A stretch of 35,957 bases of DNA, taken from assembly GCA_012513715.1 (NCBI GenBank), contig JAAZBP010000045.1:1-35957 (forward strand). Direction: 5' to 3'. Positions within the stretch are counted from its first letter, which is position 1, and each line of letters opens with the position of its first letter. Source of the stretch: Thermoproteota archaeon (GTDB lineage Archaea > Thermoproteota > Bathyarchaeia > Bathyarchaeales > Bathycorpusculaceae). The notes under the pieces are model-generated. The model saw only the letters and a program-made list of their open reading frames with translations. It did no database searches and was not told where the DNA came from. Below are positions 4,550-34,557 of the stretch, piece by piece. The position numbers were made by a program, and so were the translations under genes.

Positions 4550-5242
4550 TCAAACCTTAGAGTGATGTTTTAATCCGGCTTTATGCCAGACTTTATTTTT
4601 GACAAAAATAAATGATGTAACACCAGTAATTAATAATGTTAAGATTAGCAGTACATTAGCTAATGTTATCCATTCAGGCGAATAAAGCATTCCTATTGTT
4701 ACTGCACCAAAAATATACAGTGAAACAACACCACTTACCACTTGTCCTGCAACAACAAATTTCTGTCCTCGAAGAACCTTAGTTTTTAACCAATTAAGCG
4801 CGGCATCAATTCTCTTAGAGACATCAGGTAAATCATCCAAAACTAAAGTTAAACCTCCCAGTAGAAAGAACCTGCCTGTGTTAACTGCAATACTAGTGTT
4901 GTCTACAAAAAAAATCTTGGACAGCGGTACAGGTGAAAAAGCTATTACATAGAGTGAAGCGAAAGCTATCACCAGAAAACCATAGACATAATGGTGAAAA
5001 AGAAACCTGCCAGTTTTTAATTTTCTCCCGATTAATGCGCTTGGAAAAATATTCAATGCTGCCGCGGCAATTGCAACCCAAAAAATGTTGCCGTTAAATA
5101 GGTACGGGTGAAACGGATTCCACTCTGGGAAATACCAGTAGAAACCGGCAAGGATGCCTACTGAGCAAGCTATAGTTAGTAGCGCATTGAAAATCAGAGA
5201 TAGACTGAATGTTTTTTTGCAAAGTATCCATGCACGACCCAT
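4550..5242 (-). CDS. Membrane protein of unknown function, about six segments
   Basis: A 230-residue hydrophobic protein with roughly six membrane segments. Two polar patches stand out: HHYVYGFLV at the start of the third segment and LVLDDLPDVSKRI in a cytoplasmic-looking loop near residue 140; paired histidines followed later by D-D may form a metal site, but this is speculation. I do not recognise the family. The ATG at 5242 has GAGGA six bases upstream. It is divergent from the propeller gene at 5562. Confidence 0.7.
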   Translation of the reverse strand: MGRAWILCKKTFSLSLIFNALLTIACSVGILAGFYWYFPEWNPFHPYLFNGNIFWVAIAAAALNIFPSALIGRKLKTGRFLFHHYVYGFLVIAFASLYVIAFSPVPLSKIFFVDNTSIAVNTGRFFLLGGLTLVLDDLPDVSKRIDAALNWLKTKVLRGQKFVVAGQVVSGVVSLYIFGAVTIGMLYSPEWITLANVLLILTLLITGVTSFIFVKNKVWHKAGLKHHSKV

Positions 5243-8493: not shown

Positions 8494-9153
8494 TTGTCAG
8501 AAAGATTCGCTAAAAAGTGGGAAAGTAAACGGGCAGATGAGCCTTTCGCAAATCGCATTAAAGACGCTGTAAAACCGCCGGGTCCATTAAAGCCAAGATT
8601 GGACTTTGCTGTAAGACGTATTGAACTTCAAGTTCAAAAACTAGATCAAGCAACAGATCGATTTACTCAAAGAGATAAAGCAATTTTTGCAAGAATCGTT
8701 GACGCTTACACCAAACATGACAGTGCACGCGCAAACGTTTTCGCCAACGAATTAGCTGAAGTTAGAAAGATGTCAAAATTAATTATGAATGCTAAACTTG
8801 CTCTTGAACAAATCACATTACGCTTACGTACTGTATCAGAATTAGGCGATGTAGTATCAACTCTTGGTCCAGCTGTTGGTGTTCTACGTTCAGTAAGAAC
8901 TGGTTTAACAAGTGTGTTTCCAGAGGCTGAAAATGAACTAGGCGAAATCGGAAATATGTTAAGCGGAATCATGATTGAAGCAGGTCAAGGAAGCGGAATG
9001 ACACTAAACTTCGATACCGTAAATGACGACGCTGCCAAGATTCTAACCGAAGCAGCAACTGTAGCTGAACAGAAAATTAAAGACAGATTCCCAGATTTGC
9101 CCCCAGGAATGCCATCAGCTCCAGCTTCTGAAGCTGAAAAATCAACATTCTAA
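8494..9153 (+). CDS. cdvB1: ESCRT-III protein, CdvB paralog without winged helix
   Basis: The 219-residue protein has the Snf7/ESCRT-III helical core: a basic first helix (LDFAVRRIELQVQKLDQATDRFTQRD region, residues 38-65), the second helix with ARANVFANELAEVRKMSK, and the conserved ALEQITLRLRTVSELGDV segment near residue 110. It ends with DRFPDLPPGMPSAP, a proline-rich stretch like the MIM2 motif that binds the Vps4 MIT domain. It lacks the C-terminal winged helix of CdvB, so it resembles the constriction-type paralogs CdvB1/B2. It forms filaments on the inner membrane face at division. The TTG start has GAGGT seven bases upstream. It is the first gene of the operon. The symbol is given by analogy with Sulfolobus. 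Confidence 0.88.
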   Translation: MSERFAKKWESKRADEPFANRIKDAVKPPGPLKPRLDFAVRRIELQVQKLDQATDRFTQRDKAIFARIVDAYTKHDSARANVFANELAEVRKMSKLIMNAKLALEQITLRLRTVSELGDVVSTLGPAVGVLRSVRTGLTSVFPEAENELGEIGNMLSGIMIEAGQGSGMTLNFDTVNDDAAKILTEAATVAEQKIKDRFPDLPPGMPSAPASEAEKSTF

Positions 9154-9156
9154 ATT

Positions 9157-9182
9157 AGGAGGAAAAAATGAAAAATGTCTAA
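9157..9182 (+). promoter_or_regulatory. Strong SD with four-codon decoy cistron before cdvA
   Basis: AGGAGG (9157-9162) is followed at ideal spacing by ATG at 9168, which reads Met-Lys-Asn-Val-stop, with the stop (9180-9182) overlapping the second and third codons of cdvA in another frame. The cdvA ATG (9175) is at 12 bases. Ribosomes might start at the first ATG and restart, or skip to the second. Confidence 0.5.
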
Positions 9183-9927
9183 CTCCAATCTTTTTCTTTC
9201 TATTGGTAAACCCATCAAAAATGAATATGGTCGGATAATAGGAAAAGTTGCGTCATTCGCATTAAATCCCAACGGTAAATTTGAAGCCGTTTACATCGAA
9301 TTTGGAGATGGCGAATTCTCAAAACAGTCAATGGATAGTTTACGGTTTGATGGTGATGAAATTATCTTTATCTCCAAAATTAAATCTCAAGCTAATGTTC
9401 TCTGTGATCAAATACCTCTTATCTGGCGCAAGGATGAGGCATTAAAAGATTTACTTGACAAAAAGAAAATTGCTCCAGAAATTTATCAGGAGCTTCACAG
9501 TAGCTTTGAAAACGTTTTAACTCAACTCAAAAAGGAAGCTCAAGTTATAGTCGACGAAGCCGCAATTGAAATTGAACGCTGCCAAGAAGAATCAACCTCT
9601 CTTAGTTATGCAATTGCAAACTTGGAAATTGAACATGAAATCGGCAAAGTTGATGATGAGAGTTATGAAGCAGCTTTTACTCTACTTCAAGATACACTTC
9701 GCCGCGCAACTTCAGAACGAAAAGACTATGAACTAATTAAAAGCAAAATTTCAAGTGTCCTATTAGGCGACCAATCACAAACACAATTACAAACACAATC
9801 ACAAACACAAACTAAAACAAATAAAATCTATGCTGAACAAGTCGACGCTAAAACTAAGTTGCCTGAGCCTCCAGCTGAACCTCCAGTAGTCGTTTATGTG
9901 AAAGAAGTCGGAAAAGCCAGTATATAA
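9175..9927 (+). CDS. cdvA: CdvA, PRC-barrel coiled-coil division protein
   Basis: Residues 1-70 form a PRC-barrel-like domain (IGKPIKNEYGRIIGKVASFALNP), residues about 85-190 are predicted helical coiled coil, then a Gln/Thr low-complexity linker (about 200-215) and a C-terminal EPPAEPPVVVYVKEVGK peptide. In Sulfolobus CdvA lies on membrane and DNA and recruits CdvB by a C-terminal peptide that adds a strand to the CdvB winged helix; the VVVYVKEV strand here is in the right place for that. The linker is encoded by a CAAACACAATC-like microsatellite (9773-9820). Translation start: AGGAGG at 9157-9162 sits 12 bases before this ATG but five bases before another ATG at 9168 that encodes only MKNV. 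Confidence 0.88.
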   Translation: MSNSNLFLSIGKPIKNEYGRIIGKVASFALNPNGKFEAVYIEFGDGEFSKQSMDSLRFDGDEIIFISKIKSQANVLCDQIPLIWRKDEALKDLLDKKKIAPEIYQELHSSFENVLTQLKKEAQVIVDEAAIEIERCQEESTSLSYAIANLEIEHEIGKVDDESYEAAFTLLQDTLRRATSERKDYELIKSKISSVLLGDQSQTQLQTQSQTQTKTNKIYAEQVDAKTKLPEPPAEPPVVVYVKEVGKASI

Positions 9928-9968
9928 GGAAACAGGAAAAGACGGTTAGGAGCGCGGAGGGAAAACAA

Positions 9969-10856
9969 ATAGGCTTTACAAATCCTGCTCCTCCTCCTAT
10001 ACGTGAAGTTGCCATAAAATCTATTTGTACACTAAAAGTTCAACAGAACAAGCTAGAACAAGCTAGTTTTCGCTTAAAAGAAAGAGACAGAGTTCTTTTT
10101 GAAACCTGTATGAGTGCACTAAAAAAGAACAACAAAGATAAAGCTAATATGTGCGCAACCGAAATTGCTGAGGTTCGCAAACTTGTTAAATTTCTATATA
10201 ATGTTCAATTAGCTATTGAACGGGTAGTATTACGTCTAGAAACAATAAAAGAGCTCGGTGATATAGTAGCTGATCTTAAACCAGCTCTGAGATTGCTTCA
10301 GGGTGTTTCACAAGAACTATTCCAAGTACTGCCAGACGTAAGTAATGAATTAAATAATGTTAATTCAGCAATCCAGGACACTCTTCACGCCACTAAAATA
10401 ACAACAGATGAAAACTTAGTCCCAGTCGGCAAAAAAACAGAGGCGGGTGAAGAAATATTAAAGGAAGTCTCATGTTTTATGGAACAAAAATTATCTGAGA
10501 CTCTTCCTGAACCGCCAGAAACCGCTCCAGTTAAAGAGAAAACACCAATCAGAGAACTTGTAGCTTTGACTGCAAGTAGTTCCCAAGTTTATAGTAAGAA
10601 AGATGTGACGTCAGAGTTTGATCCTGCTAAGACTCTTTTTTCATACAAGAAGTCTGAGATTAAAGAGTTCTCACTTAAAGTTGAGAAACCATGTTTAGAA
10701 GATGTTCTCCTAGAGTATGTACGTAAAACCAACGGAGAAATAGATTTAGGTAGATGCTCAAATGAATTACAAACTTCTAATGAAGAGATTGAGCGTGCCC
10801 TAGAAAACTTGGGAAATAAAGGTAAAATAAAGATTGAATTACGTTCACCTGAATAA
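9969..10856 (+). CDS. cdvB: CdvB, ESCRT-III protein with C-terminal winged helix
   Basis: The ESCRT-III core spans EVAIKSICTLKVQQNKLEQA, KANMCATEIAEVRKLVKF and QLAIERVVLRLETIKELGDI, matching the paralog at 8494. A proline-rich ETLPEPPETAP stretch near residue 180 fits a Vps4-binding MIM2 motif, and the last 55 residues (DVLLEYVRKTNGEIDLGRCS onward) form the winged helix that binds CdvA. The first in-frame ATG is at 10110, but starting there would delete most of helix 1, and the upstream frame is open and homologous. No ATG, GTG or TTG occurs in that frame back to its opening at 9879. I place the start at ATA 9969 because GGAGG at 9956-9960 is eight bases upstream. A sequencing frameshift is the alternative. 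Confidence 0.8.
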   Translation: MGFTNPAPPPIREVAIKSICTLKVQQNKLEQASFRLKERDRVLFETCMSALKKNNKDKANMCATEIAEVRKLVKFLYNVQLAIERVVLRLETIKELGDIVADLKPALRLLQGVSQELFQVLPDVSNELNNVNSAIQDTLHATKITTDENLVPVGKKTEAGEEILKEVSCFMEQKLSETLPEPPETAPVKEKTPIRELVALTASSSQVYSKKDVTSEFDPAKTLFSYKKSEIKEFSLKVEKPCLEDVLLEYVRKTNGEIDLGRCSNELQTSNEEIERALENLGNKGKIKIELRSPE

Positions 10857-10885
10857 GTGAACAAACAGGGAGAGAAAAATACTGA

Positions 10886-12079
10886 ATGAGTGCGTCAAGT
10901 GAGTTAGAAAAAGCAGCAACAGCGTACGCTCTGGATGCAGTACGATTGGATAAACAGGGTCAAAAAGGTAGAGCCATTACTCTTTACCAAAAAGCAATTG
11001 AAAGTCTTCTTCAGTTGGTTCAGCTTTACCCTGAATACGGTTTGAACAAAGTTTACGTCCAGCGTGCAGTAGCATATCAAGAGCGGATAAAAGCCCTCCA
11101 AGGATCAGTTTCACCGAGTGAATACAATCAAGTCGATAGTAACAATGATGACGGCGGAAGTTCAGCTACAATGGATGGAAACAGCGGAGGCAGTGGTAAT
11201 AATGGGAAATCGAAAGAAGAACTTGTTGTAACAGAAAAGCCAAAAGTAAGTTGGGGTGAAGTTTTAGGTTTAGAAACTGCCAAGAAAGCAGTTAAAGAAG
11301 CTATAGTTTATCCAGTTCAGAGACCTGACTTGTTTCCACTAGGTTGGCCACGTGGAATTCTTTTATTTGGGCCTCCAGGTTGCGGTAAGACATTGTTAGC
11401 TGCTGCTGTGGCAACTGAAATTGATGCTAATTTCTATTCAATAGATGCTGCATCCATAATGTCAAAATGGTTAGGTGAAGCTGAACAGAATGTTGCTAAA
11501 CTGTTTAATACAGCGCGAAAATCAGCCAATGAAGGTAAACCTGCAATCGTGTTTGTAGACGAATTAGACTCGCTTATGGGTGCACATACTAATGAGGTCG
11601 GCGGAGAAATCCGTGTGCGCAATCAGTTTCTCAAGGAAATGGATGGAATAATGGATAAAGGTAAAGCGCTACATGTTTATGTTATAGGTGCCACCAACAA
11701 GCCTTGGGATTTAGATTGGGCCTTTATCAGACGATTCCAGAAACGAATCTTGGTTCCTCTAGCAGATCACGCCACCCGTCTAAATATGCTGAAACATTAT
11801 GTTGGAACACTACAAATCGCTGCTGATGTAGATCTACGTGAACTGGCACGTTTATCTGAAGGCTTTTCAGGAAGCGACATAAGAGATGTTTGTCAATCAG
11901 CTCAATTAAAGTTGATAGGAGAATTTTTCGAATCAGGCAAAGCAATGGATAAGGCAGCAAAACCGCGAGCTTTAAAGATGGTTGATTTCCGCCAAATACT
12001 AGAGGAACGTAAACCAAGTGTTTCATTAGATATGCTGACAAGTTACAACCGCTGGTTCGAAGCATTCAAAGCACTTTAG
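10886..12079 (+). CDS. cdvC: CdvC, Vps4-type AAA+ ATPase
   Basis: The 397-residue protein has an N-terminal MIT three-helix domain (residues 1-75), a Gly/Asn/Ser-rich linker (about 80-110), and an AAA+ module with Walker A GPPGCGKT near residue 162, the pore-loop segment SKWLGEAE, Walker B IVFVDELDS near 220 and the FIRRFQKR arginine-finger region. It disassembles ESCRT-III filaments by threading subunits through its hexameric pore, and the MIT domain would bind the proline-rich tails of both upstream ESCRT-III proteins. The gene is last in the operon, 29 bases after cdvB, with GGGAGAG upstream of the ATG. Confidence 0.93.
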   Translation: MSASSELEKAATAYALDAVRLDKQGQKGRAITLYQKAIESLLQLVQLYPEYGLNKVYVQRAVAYQERIKALQGSVSPSEYNQVDSNNDDGGSSATMDGNSGGSGNNGKSKEELVVTEKPKVSWGEVLGLETAKKAVKEAIVYPVQRPDLFPLGWPRGILLFGPPGCGKTLLAAAVATEIDANFYSIDAASIMSKWLGEAEQNVAKLFNTARKSANEGKPAIVFVDELDSLMGAHTNEVGGEIRVRNQFLKEMDGIMDKGKALHVYVIGATNKPWDLDWAFIRRFQKRILVPLADHATRLNMLKHYVGTLQIAADVDLRELARLSEGFSGSDIRDVCQSAQLKLIGEFFESGKAMDKAAKPRALKMVDFRQILEERKPSVSLDMLTSYNRWFEAFKAL

Positions 12080-12355: not shown

Positions 12356-12829
12356 TTACTTTTTCATTTCTTCTCTAAATGTTTCTTCAAGCATTTTCTT
12401 GTTTATCCCAATCTCTTCAGCTAATCTTTTTACTTGTTTAACATATGTTCGAAATAGGCTTTGTAGTATCTCAGTTTTTTCTGCTTCGGTAATTTCTTCC
12501 TCTTCAGCTATAAGCAAAGCAAACCAGCGGCCTAAGTTGGTAAGTTGATATGTCTTAATCCAAATTATCCGGCCATCTTTATCGTTTTTTTCCATGCTCT
12601 CATTTAGTACGCCTAACGATGTGAGCGATTTAAGATTCTCTATAATTGTTTTGTTTGAATAATTTAGTTTCTTTACAAGGTCTTTTTGGTAGATGTTCTT
12701 GGCTATTCCCTGTTTTACTGAAAAACGTAATACATCTACACCTGCTTTAGACCCAAATATTGCTGATAGAATCTTATCTTTCTTTTCTTGAGGAAGGAAT
12801 ACTACATAAGGATGTAATTTTTCTATCAC
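12356..12829 (-). CDS. Winged-helix transcriptional regulator
   Basis: A 157-residue protein whose middle (residues 30-85) is a winged helix: FSVKQGIAKNIYQKDLVKKL, then NKTIIENLKSLTSLGVLN as recognition helix, then a wing with DKDGRIIWIKTYQLT. The C-terminal third is charged and helical (EEEEITEAEKTEIL onward) and may dimerise. No ligand domain is evident. The start is GTG at 12829; an upstream ATG is blocked by a stop. It is divergent from the basic coiled-coil gene at 13083 and convergent with the cdv operon, so it may regulate neighbours or itself. Confidence 0.75.
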   Translation of the reverse strand: MIEKLHPYVVFLPQEKKDKILSAIFGSKAGVDVLRFSVKQGIAKNIYQKDLVKKLNYSNKTIIENLKSLTSLGVLNESMEKNDKDGRIIWIKTYQLTNLGRWFALLIAEEEEITEAEKTEILQSLFRTYVKQVKRLAEEIGINKKMLEETFREEMKK

Positions 12830-33704: not shown

Positions 33705-33745
33705 GTCAAGAAACCTTGACAAAGCCTTTGTCAAGAAACCTTGAC
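33705..33745. promoter_or_regulatory. Tandem palindromic operator array before a TATA box
   Basis: Two identical 16-base palindromes GTCAAGAAACCTTGAC occur at 33705-33720 and 33730-33745, with centres 25 bases apart. Between them CTTGACAAAG and CTTTGTCAAG (33715-33724, 33726-33735) form a perfect 10-1-10 palindrome. The array ends five bases before the TATA box, over the place where TFB binds, so a bound dimer or tetramer would strongly affect the promoter. Confidence 0.75.
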
Positions 33746-33750
33746 AAAAA

Positions 33751-33759
33751 AATATTTAA
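33751..33759 (+). promoter_or_regulatory. TATA box of the small RNA/sORF locus
   Basis: AATATTTAA lies directly downstream of the palindrome array. With typical archaeal spacing transcription would begin near 33783-33786, exactly at the first base of the stem-loop at 33785. Confidence 0.6.
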
Positions 33760-33784
33760 CTGATAAGTGACCGGGTTAATTATT

Positions 33785-33888
33785 GGTTAAGCATGAATAC
33801 AATAATTAACTGCCATGCCGCTGTTTCTCCTCTTTTTAGTTTGTTCATGCTTAACCCTCTCCCTTTCTATATCCTTCTAAAAAGCTGA
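33785..33888 (+). ncRNA. Putative regulated small RNA (or 31-codon small ORF)
   Basis: GGTTAAGCATGAA (33785-33797) and TTCATGCTTAACC (33844-33856) are perfect 13-base inverted repeats around a 46-base loop, and the predicted transcription start coincides with the 5' arm. The loop is pyrimidine-rich (TTTCTCCTCTTTTT), complementary to ribosome-binding sites of the GAGGA type, as in antisense regulatory RNAs. The same region holds a 31-codon frame from ATG 33793 to TGA 33888 encoding a hydrophobic peptide (VSPLFSLFMLNPLPFYILL), but the ATG lies within the stem and no ribosome-binding site is present. Both readings are open; a dual-function RNA is possible. Confidence 0.5.
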
Positions 33889-33947: not shown

Positions 33948-34124
33948 TCAGTTTATTGATTTCTTGAACCATATCATGCCGATGACTGCGACTATTGTGG
34001 CTGATAGTGCTGCCACTGGGTTTATCGACTGCATTGACAAGAAGCAGGTGGCTAGGAACGTAATTACAGTCACTAAAGAAATCAAAATGATAATCCTGCT
34101 TATTGTCAAATTCTTATTGCTCAA
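33948..34124 (-). CDS. Small two-segment membrane protein
   Basis: A 58-residue protein with two hydrophobic segments (ISRIIILISLVTVITFLATC and NPVAALSATIVAVIGMIWF) and a basic end FKKSIN. I choose the TTG at 34124 because GAGGT (34132-34136) lies seven bases upstream; the longer frame to 34226 has no comparable signal. The function is unknown. Confidence 0.55.
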   Translation of the reverse strand: MSNKNLTISRIIILISLVTVITFLATCFLSMQSINPVAALSATIVAVIGMIWFKKSIN

Positions 34125-34281
34125 TTTCTTAACCTCATAGGATCTAATGACCTTTAGAATACTATGGATTGTTTTTGATTTAATGCTAAGCTTACGAACA
34201 AAGTGTTCAGATATTAGACAACACAAAATGTTTTTTGAAACAATACAAAAATAGAATTAGTCAAAATTAAAGAATAAGAGT

Positions 34282-34557
34282 TTAGTCTTCTTCAGCTAGT
34301 TTTCGCTCTTTAACCTTTAAAGCGTCTTCGTCGCCGATAACTCTGAAGGTCTCTGTTAGTTCGTATTTATGCAGAAACTTTTTGACTATTATACGAATAT
34401 ACTTCTTGCTGAATGCTTCTCCTTCACCTTTAACTGTAACTTCTTTTCCTTCAGTAGTAACTTCTCCTGCTGTTTTTTCTTTTAGGAAATCAGCTAATTT
34501 CTCTACGATTTTAGATTCACCCTTAAGTTCGGAAACATCGATTTTCATTTCAACCAT
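34282..34557 (-). CDS. Ribosomal protein eL22-like
   Basis: The 91-residue protein follows the eL22 pattern: an N-terminal strand and helix (IVEKLADFLKEKT), a basic strand pair (GKEVTVKGEGEAFSKKYIRI), the helix IVKKFLHKYELTETFRVI and an acidic C terminus (KLAEED). The F-S-K-K-Y-x-R/K-x-x-x-K-K-F/Y-L block is the best match with eukaryotic eL22, which reads F-S-K-R-Y-L-K-Y-L-T-K-K-Y-L. eL22 is absent from most archaea. GAGGTG lies eight bases before the ATG. A box C/D RNA lies about 90 bases upstream on the same strand. Confidence 0.75.
   Translation of the reverse strand: MVEMKIDVSELKGESKIVEKLADFLKEKTAGEVTTEGKEVTVKGEGEAFSKKYIRIIVKKFLHKYELTETFRVIGDEDALKVKERKLAEED

Follow-up and report, generated by a model that had tools for sequence, protein, structure and literature searches.

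Three described archaeal small RNAs (sRNAs) provide the closest points of comparison for the locus analysed here. In Methanosarcina mazei, sRNA162 pairs with mRNA through an unstructured single-stranded region and masks the ribosome-binding site (PMC3510493), while the trans-encoded sRNA154 of the same organism is made under nitrogen limitation, like the genes that it serves, and acts post-transcriptionally on their mRNAs (PMC11549558). In Haloferax volcanii, the intergenic sRNA132 is associated with phosphate starvation and has an ABC-transporter operon as its putative target (PMC6560208). The Bathyarchaeota are an abundant lineage, most of which is uncultured; our search of the literature found no described regulatory sRNA for them, and it likewise found no report of the operator motif discussed below.

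We examined a window of 35,957 nucleotides (the whole stretch of DNA that was analysed) from a member of this lineage, in which the plus strand from 33702 to ~33910 would, with a probability that we put at roughly 60%, be an independent sRNA gene that is co-regulated with the secretome and acts in trans through pairing of its loop. The candidate represents a new family within a type of regulator that is already known. It resembles sRNA162 as an archaeal sRNA with stem-loops, and the pairing mode of sRNA162 is the one that we propose for the present loop, but sRNA162 comes from another phylum, no kinship is claimed, and the present RNA, as predicted from sequence, consists of one hairpin whose loop is conserved. 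With sRNA154 it would share co-expression with the genes served; there, however, targets and phenotype are established, whereas here the regulon consists of secretome genes, the role of the sRNA is putative, and again no kinship is claimed. sRNA132 is similar in being an archaeal sRNA from an intergenic region with a link to one particular condition, but it is haloarchaeal, and the likeness is one of description. The locus provides a specific, testable sRNA candidate with a promoter, a start and a structure, laid out as follows.

33705..33745, plus strand: tandem operator of two GTCAAGAAACCTTGAC copies (33705-33720 and 33730-33745; start-to-start spacing 25), kept in nine genomes
33715-33735: 10-1-10 palindrome CTTGACAAAG-C-CTTTGTCAAG
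33751..33759, plus strand: TATA-like box AATATTTAA, 5 bp 3' of the array, where regulon promoters have their (C)TTTTA element
33778..33785, plus strand: predicted transcription start region AATTATTG, placed ~25-30 nt past the TATA centre
33785..33856, plus strand: sRNA stem-loop of 13 bp and one U-G pair, with a 44-nt loop
33785-33797 and 33844-33856: stem arms GGTTAAGCATGAA/TTCATGCTTAACC, the 14th pair being the U-G at 33798/33843
33793-33888: 31-codon ATG frame
33807..33832, plus strand: loop core TAACTGCCATGCCGCTGTTTCTCCTC with invariant part TGCCGCTNTTTCT, from the nine-locus alignment, with a possible 5-bp inner hairpin
33827-33832: CTCCTC in the loop
33857..33920, plus strand: likely 3' tail to the T-runs TTTTATCTGTTTT, placed from the T-rich sequence and stopping short of the convergent gene
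33948..34226, minus strand: convergent small membrane-protein ORF, a neighbour outside the sRNA

In the re-read sequence (33705-33888), all elements on which the original prediction was built are present at their places, namely the palindromes, the TATA box 5 bp further on, the 13-bp stem, the loop CTCCTC and the 31-codon frame. The array, which had been described as three overlapping palindromes, is better read as two operator copies, since the 10-1-10 palindrome consists of their facing half-sites together with the AAAGCCTTT linker; it is gone in relatives with an operator spacing of ~33 nt. The stem begins 39 nt past the end of the array. Downstream of the unit, the window holds no plus-strand ORF of at least 80 aa, and the convergent membrane-protein ORF matches no Pfam family. 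The arrangement points to an independent transcription unit with its own promoter in an intergenic region. Searching the window against Rfam gave no match at the curated gathering threshold, and thus no described family; with permissive thresholds the best match was rli38, on the opposite strand and with 24.1 bits vs the 49 required, and none was credible. A C/D box or H/ACA guide RNA was rejected as well, there being no Rfam match and, in the alignment read by eye, no canonical RUGAUGA/CUGA boxes or H/ACA architecture.

Within the Bathyarchaeota genus of the window, nine of 32 genomes (the home genome and eight relatives) have the unit of array and stem-loop, and a pattern scan recovered the same element in named Candidatus Bathyarchaeota MAGs, at three of the same loci; when 163 genomes of the order were searched by covariance, no credible match emerged outside the genus. 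Across the nine genomes, conservation is arranged in blocks: mean pairwise identity is 75% in the array, 89% in the TATA box with its short 5' gap, 92% and 89% in the two stem arms and 85% in the loop core, and the block at the start region reaches 68% vs 40% in the spacer between TATA and start. Identity falls to 40-44% in the loop margins and to 20-27% in the flanks, with the 3' tail and downstream flank unconserved at 20%. The operator pair is kept in all nine loci, at a spacing of 25 or ~33 nt, and in every one of them 37, 38 or 39 nt separate the operator end from the stem. This block conservation, together with the fixed distance between operator and stem, argues for a promoter plus a structured RNA, and against an element acting as DNA only or a coding frame. 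The layout of a regulated sRNA that had been proposed for the home sequence, with its operators, TATA box, fixed spacing and stem-loop, is thus conserved in nine genomes.

One could still imagine that the locus functions purely as DNA, be it as a protein-binding or mobile (MITE-like) element or as a cluster of operators without a transcript, given that all arms are palindromic DNA and that copies of the operator are scattered through the genome. The stem arm, however, is not dispersed elsewhere as an inverted-repeat pair (in the genomes searched, GGTTAAGCATGAAC occurs as a close inverted pair at this locus only, so a MITE or dispersed inverted repeat was rejected), the loop core and its strand-specific place after the TATA box are conserved, and the other operator copies stand before genes, all of which makes such an interpretation highly improbable. 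We consider it very improbable, too, that the unit is a cis element of the convergent membrane-protein gene, acting as its terminator or as an antisense RNA to its 3' end. The convergent gene does adjoin the unit in most carriers, and sequence matching the 3' end of its ORF lies beside the sRNA in most relatives, but the RNA is kept in G009 and G016, where the downstream flank bears no trace of that end; moreover, on the minus strand the stem lacks a T-run behind it, and the downstream flank is only 20% identical.

The RNA is absent from 23 of the 32 genomes of the genus, some of which have the operator elsewhere, and genomes that do not have the RNA beside the gene of ribosomal protein L22e do not have the operator there either; the unit thus appears to be gained or lost as a whole. 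In a tree of L22e, which left out three genomes, the carriers fall into one large clade of the genus, scattered inside it and with weak support, a pattern that a single gain with several losses, or some transfer, could explain. The L22e gene itself (eukaryote-type, Pfam PF01776; window 34282-34557, minus strand) is present in 29 of the 32 genomes, and the sRNA adjoins it in seven of the nine carriers; in G009 and G016 it lies 3 kb and 21 kb away from the sRNA. An exact 21-base match to the 3' arm of the sRNA, with neither loop nor 5' arm, is found in L026 at ~5058-5078 (G012:C11:41657-41677), and is either chance or a remnant.

The home stem-loop has a predicted folding energy of -21.6 kcal/mol (z = -5.4 relative to shuffled sequence), and z-scores for the stem range from -4.2 to -8.0 among the five sequences folded. 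The hairpin forms in all nine loci, with 98.4% of the stem cells paired, and the RNA structure is thus, by prediction, conserved. Two pairs change on both sides, from C-G to G-C in G006 and from A-U to G-C in G007; in three further stem pairs a one-sided change gives G-U or U-G, and in G013 an A-U is replaced by a C-G with a bulged A. Eight of the 14 stem pairs never vary. The expectation that relatives would carry palindromes and a covarying stem is therefore borne out for the unit as such, while the covariation is thin (two of 19 pairs, with shuffles matching the observed measures 36-44 times in 500), because the stem is nearly invariant in sequence, and we regard the covariation support for the stem as suggestive, not decisive. 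The loop core may also contain a small inner hairpin around YMUGCC, with 91% of its cells paired and no compensatory change.

The original prediction had also offered the 31-codon hydrophobic frame as a microprotein encoded by the same RNA. This part does not survive the comparison: the frame is reduced to MNK*, MRRN* and MN* in G009, G006 and G014, respectively, and differs or is unrelated in the other relatives. A second frame, beginning at an inner ATG, might give a tiny translated product under the control of the stem, and here the start MPLFL is kept in eight of nine loci (MPLFLLF in most genomes) with several changes falling at third codon positions. Still, G007 has CTG in place of the inner ATG, the frame varies in length from 6 to 37 codons and is unconserved after residue 6-7, and the C-to-U changes preserve the pyrimidine tract equally well. 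With the stem frame stopping after 2-4 codons in three relatives, a translated product from either frame is very improbable, and the unit is best classed as non-coding, as expected for an sRNA.

As to the action of the loop, the proposal had been that CTCCTC, being complementary to ribosome-binding sites, would act against them. The invariant loop core, UGCCGCUNUUUCU, and the pyrimidine tract do persist in the nine loci, but CUCCUC itself is kept in six of nine, with variants in G016, G006 and G013. A search of the home genome with a 19-mer anti-loop pattern gave nothing convincing, and complements of the 13-nt core with at most one mismatch are no more common in the nine genomes than expected (99 non-self matches vs 132 for the reversed control), with none, in the contexts of nearly all of these matches, recurring at the starts of orthologous genes. 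Nor does the predicted duplex energy of the loop show a preference for the regulon, being -16.1 kcal/mol for 22 regulon 5' ends vs -16.1 kcal/mol for 105 other ORF starts. Since CUCCUC is kept in only six of nine loci, and there is no excess of complements, no conserved target at start sites and no preference for the regulon, a general anti-Shine-Dalgarno action is not supported, and the original idea finds weak support in the pyrimidine tract; a single, imperfectly paired mRNA target is possible.

The same observations bear on whether the RNA binds a protein instead, in which case the invariant stem and loop would constitute a site for, e.g., the regulator of the regulon or an RNA-binding protein, and the RNA would sequester or scaffold it with no pairing to mRNA. 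This would fit a stem whose sequence, and not only its pairing, is almost fixed, and an invariant loop core with no detectable complementary target. Pairing between sRNA and mRNA may, however, be short and imperfect, so that the failure of a search for near-perfect sites leaves it possible, and no candidate protein partner was identified; we thus judge the protein-binding alternative unlikely, and regard the sRNA as probably trans-acting and base-pairing.

The large number of operator copies outside the locus suggests that the array should be viewed in a genome-wide context. Indeed, GTCAAGN4CTTGAC is found exactly 19 times in the home genome vs 0 times for the reversed control, and 38 vs 4 times when one mismatch is allowed. 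The home-genome copies examined are oriented by a GAAA core and usually have a TATA-like (C)TTTTA ~5-8 bases downstream, and a start codon follows 32-98 bases past the operator, mostly at +34 to +48. Given the usual archaeal spacing between TATA and start, we infer that the latter genes have leaderless or near-leaderless mRNAs. The 37-39 nt between operator and stem in the sRNA unit match the typical position of these start codons. Among the operator-linked protein genes of the home genome, the products of 22 of 23 have a strongly hydrophobic N-terminus, as in a signal peptide or anchor, compared to seven of the 27 window ORFs under the same scoring; the start codons were set by script, and the background includes some spurious ORFs. 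Pfam domains in the linked genes include NosD/beta-helix, Kelch and Ig-like domains. The array is therefore the operator of a secretome regulon and not private to the sRNA gene. No obvious DNA-binding protein gene, as might encode the regulator, is present among the operator-linked genes of the home genome. The lone exception of the 23 encodes a protein of 59 codons that carries CxxC and His. A CxxC/His protein of 55-59 codons stands behind tandem operators in three genomes (L067:3919-4095, minus strand, and also L133 and L008), and in the home regulon sample it is the sole protein product that is not exported; it is possible that this protein is a regulatory partner.

Among the genera of the order, several have many exact operators, and others have few or none. 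In three genomes of another family of the order (G036, G053 and G057), many operators have no obvious TATA or gene behind them, and the regulon picture is therefore firm for the genus of the window alone. In the loci L114-L132 of these three genomes, the operators are spaced 34-45 apart. In the genus of the window, the operator GTCAAGAAANCTTGAC, ~5 bp before a TATA box, is the mark of a regulon of exported proteins, and it is also found in other genera of the order. The particular interest of the locus lies in its connection with a secretome regulon of an uncultured lineage.

Taken together, the preferred reading suggests the following mechanism. A putative sequence-specific regulator would bind the two tandem GTCAAGAAANCTTGAC operators just upstream of the TATA box, as it would ahead of dozens of genes that encode secreted and surface proteins, and since the operator is common to both, the RNA would be made under secretome conditions. 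Transcription is predicted to begin such that the 5' end of the RNA forms the foot of the 14-bp hairpin, which would close and stabilise that end and present the invariant loop core, UGCCGCUNUUUCU plus the pyrimidine tract. This loop would most likely act in trans, pairing with one mRNA or a few mRNAs in their 5' regions, so that the sRNA would serve the secretome regulon as a feed-forward or a feedback arm. One may further speculate, as a tentative possibility, that in Bathyarchaeia this RNA provides the post-transcriptional branch of a regulon spanning the secretome, where one transcription factor would drive both the surface and secreted proteins and an sRNA that tunes the export load or the regulator. 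The sRNA candidate or the operator could in either case serve as a handle on the control of display and export in these archaea.

Elsewhere in the window, an archaeal Cdv/ESCRT division cluster is found at 8494-12079. It contains a Snf7-like CdvB and a Vps4-type AAA ATPase with an MIT domain (Snf7 and Vps4 matches by a Pfam-type search), as well as a CdvA-like protein and a second Snf7-like protein, both recognised by reading only, and it is adjoined by a weak winged-helix match at 12356-12829 on the minus strand.
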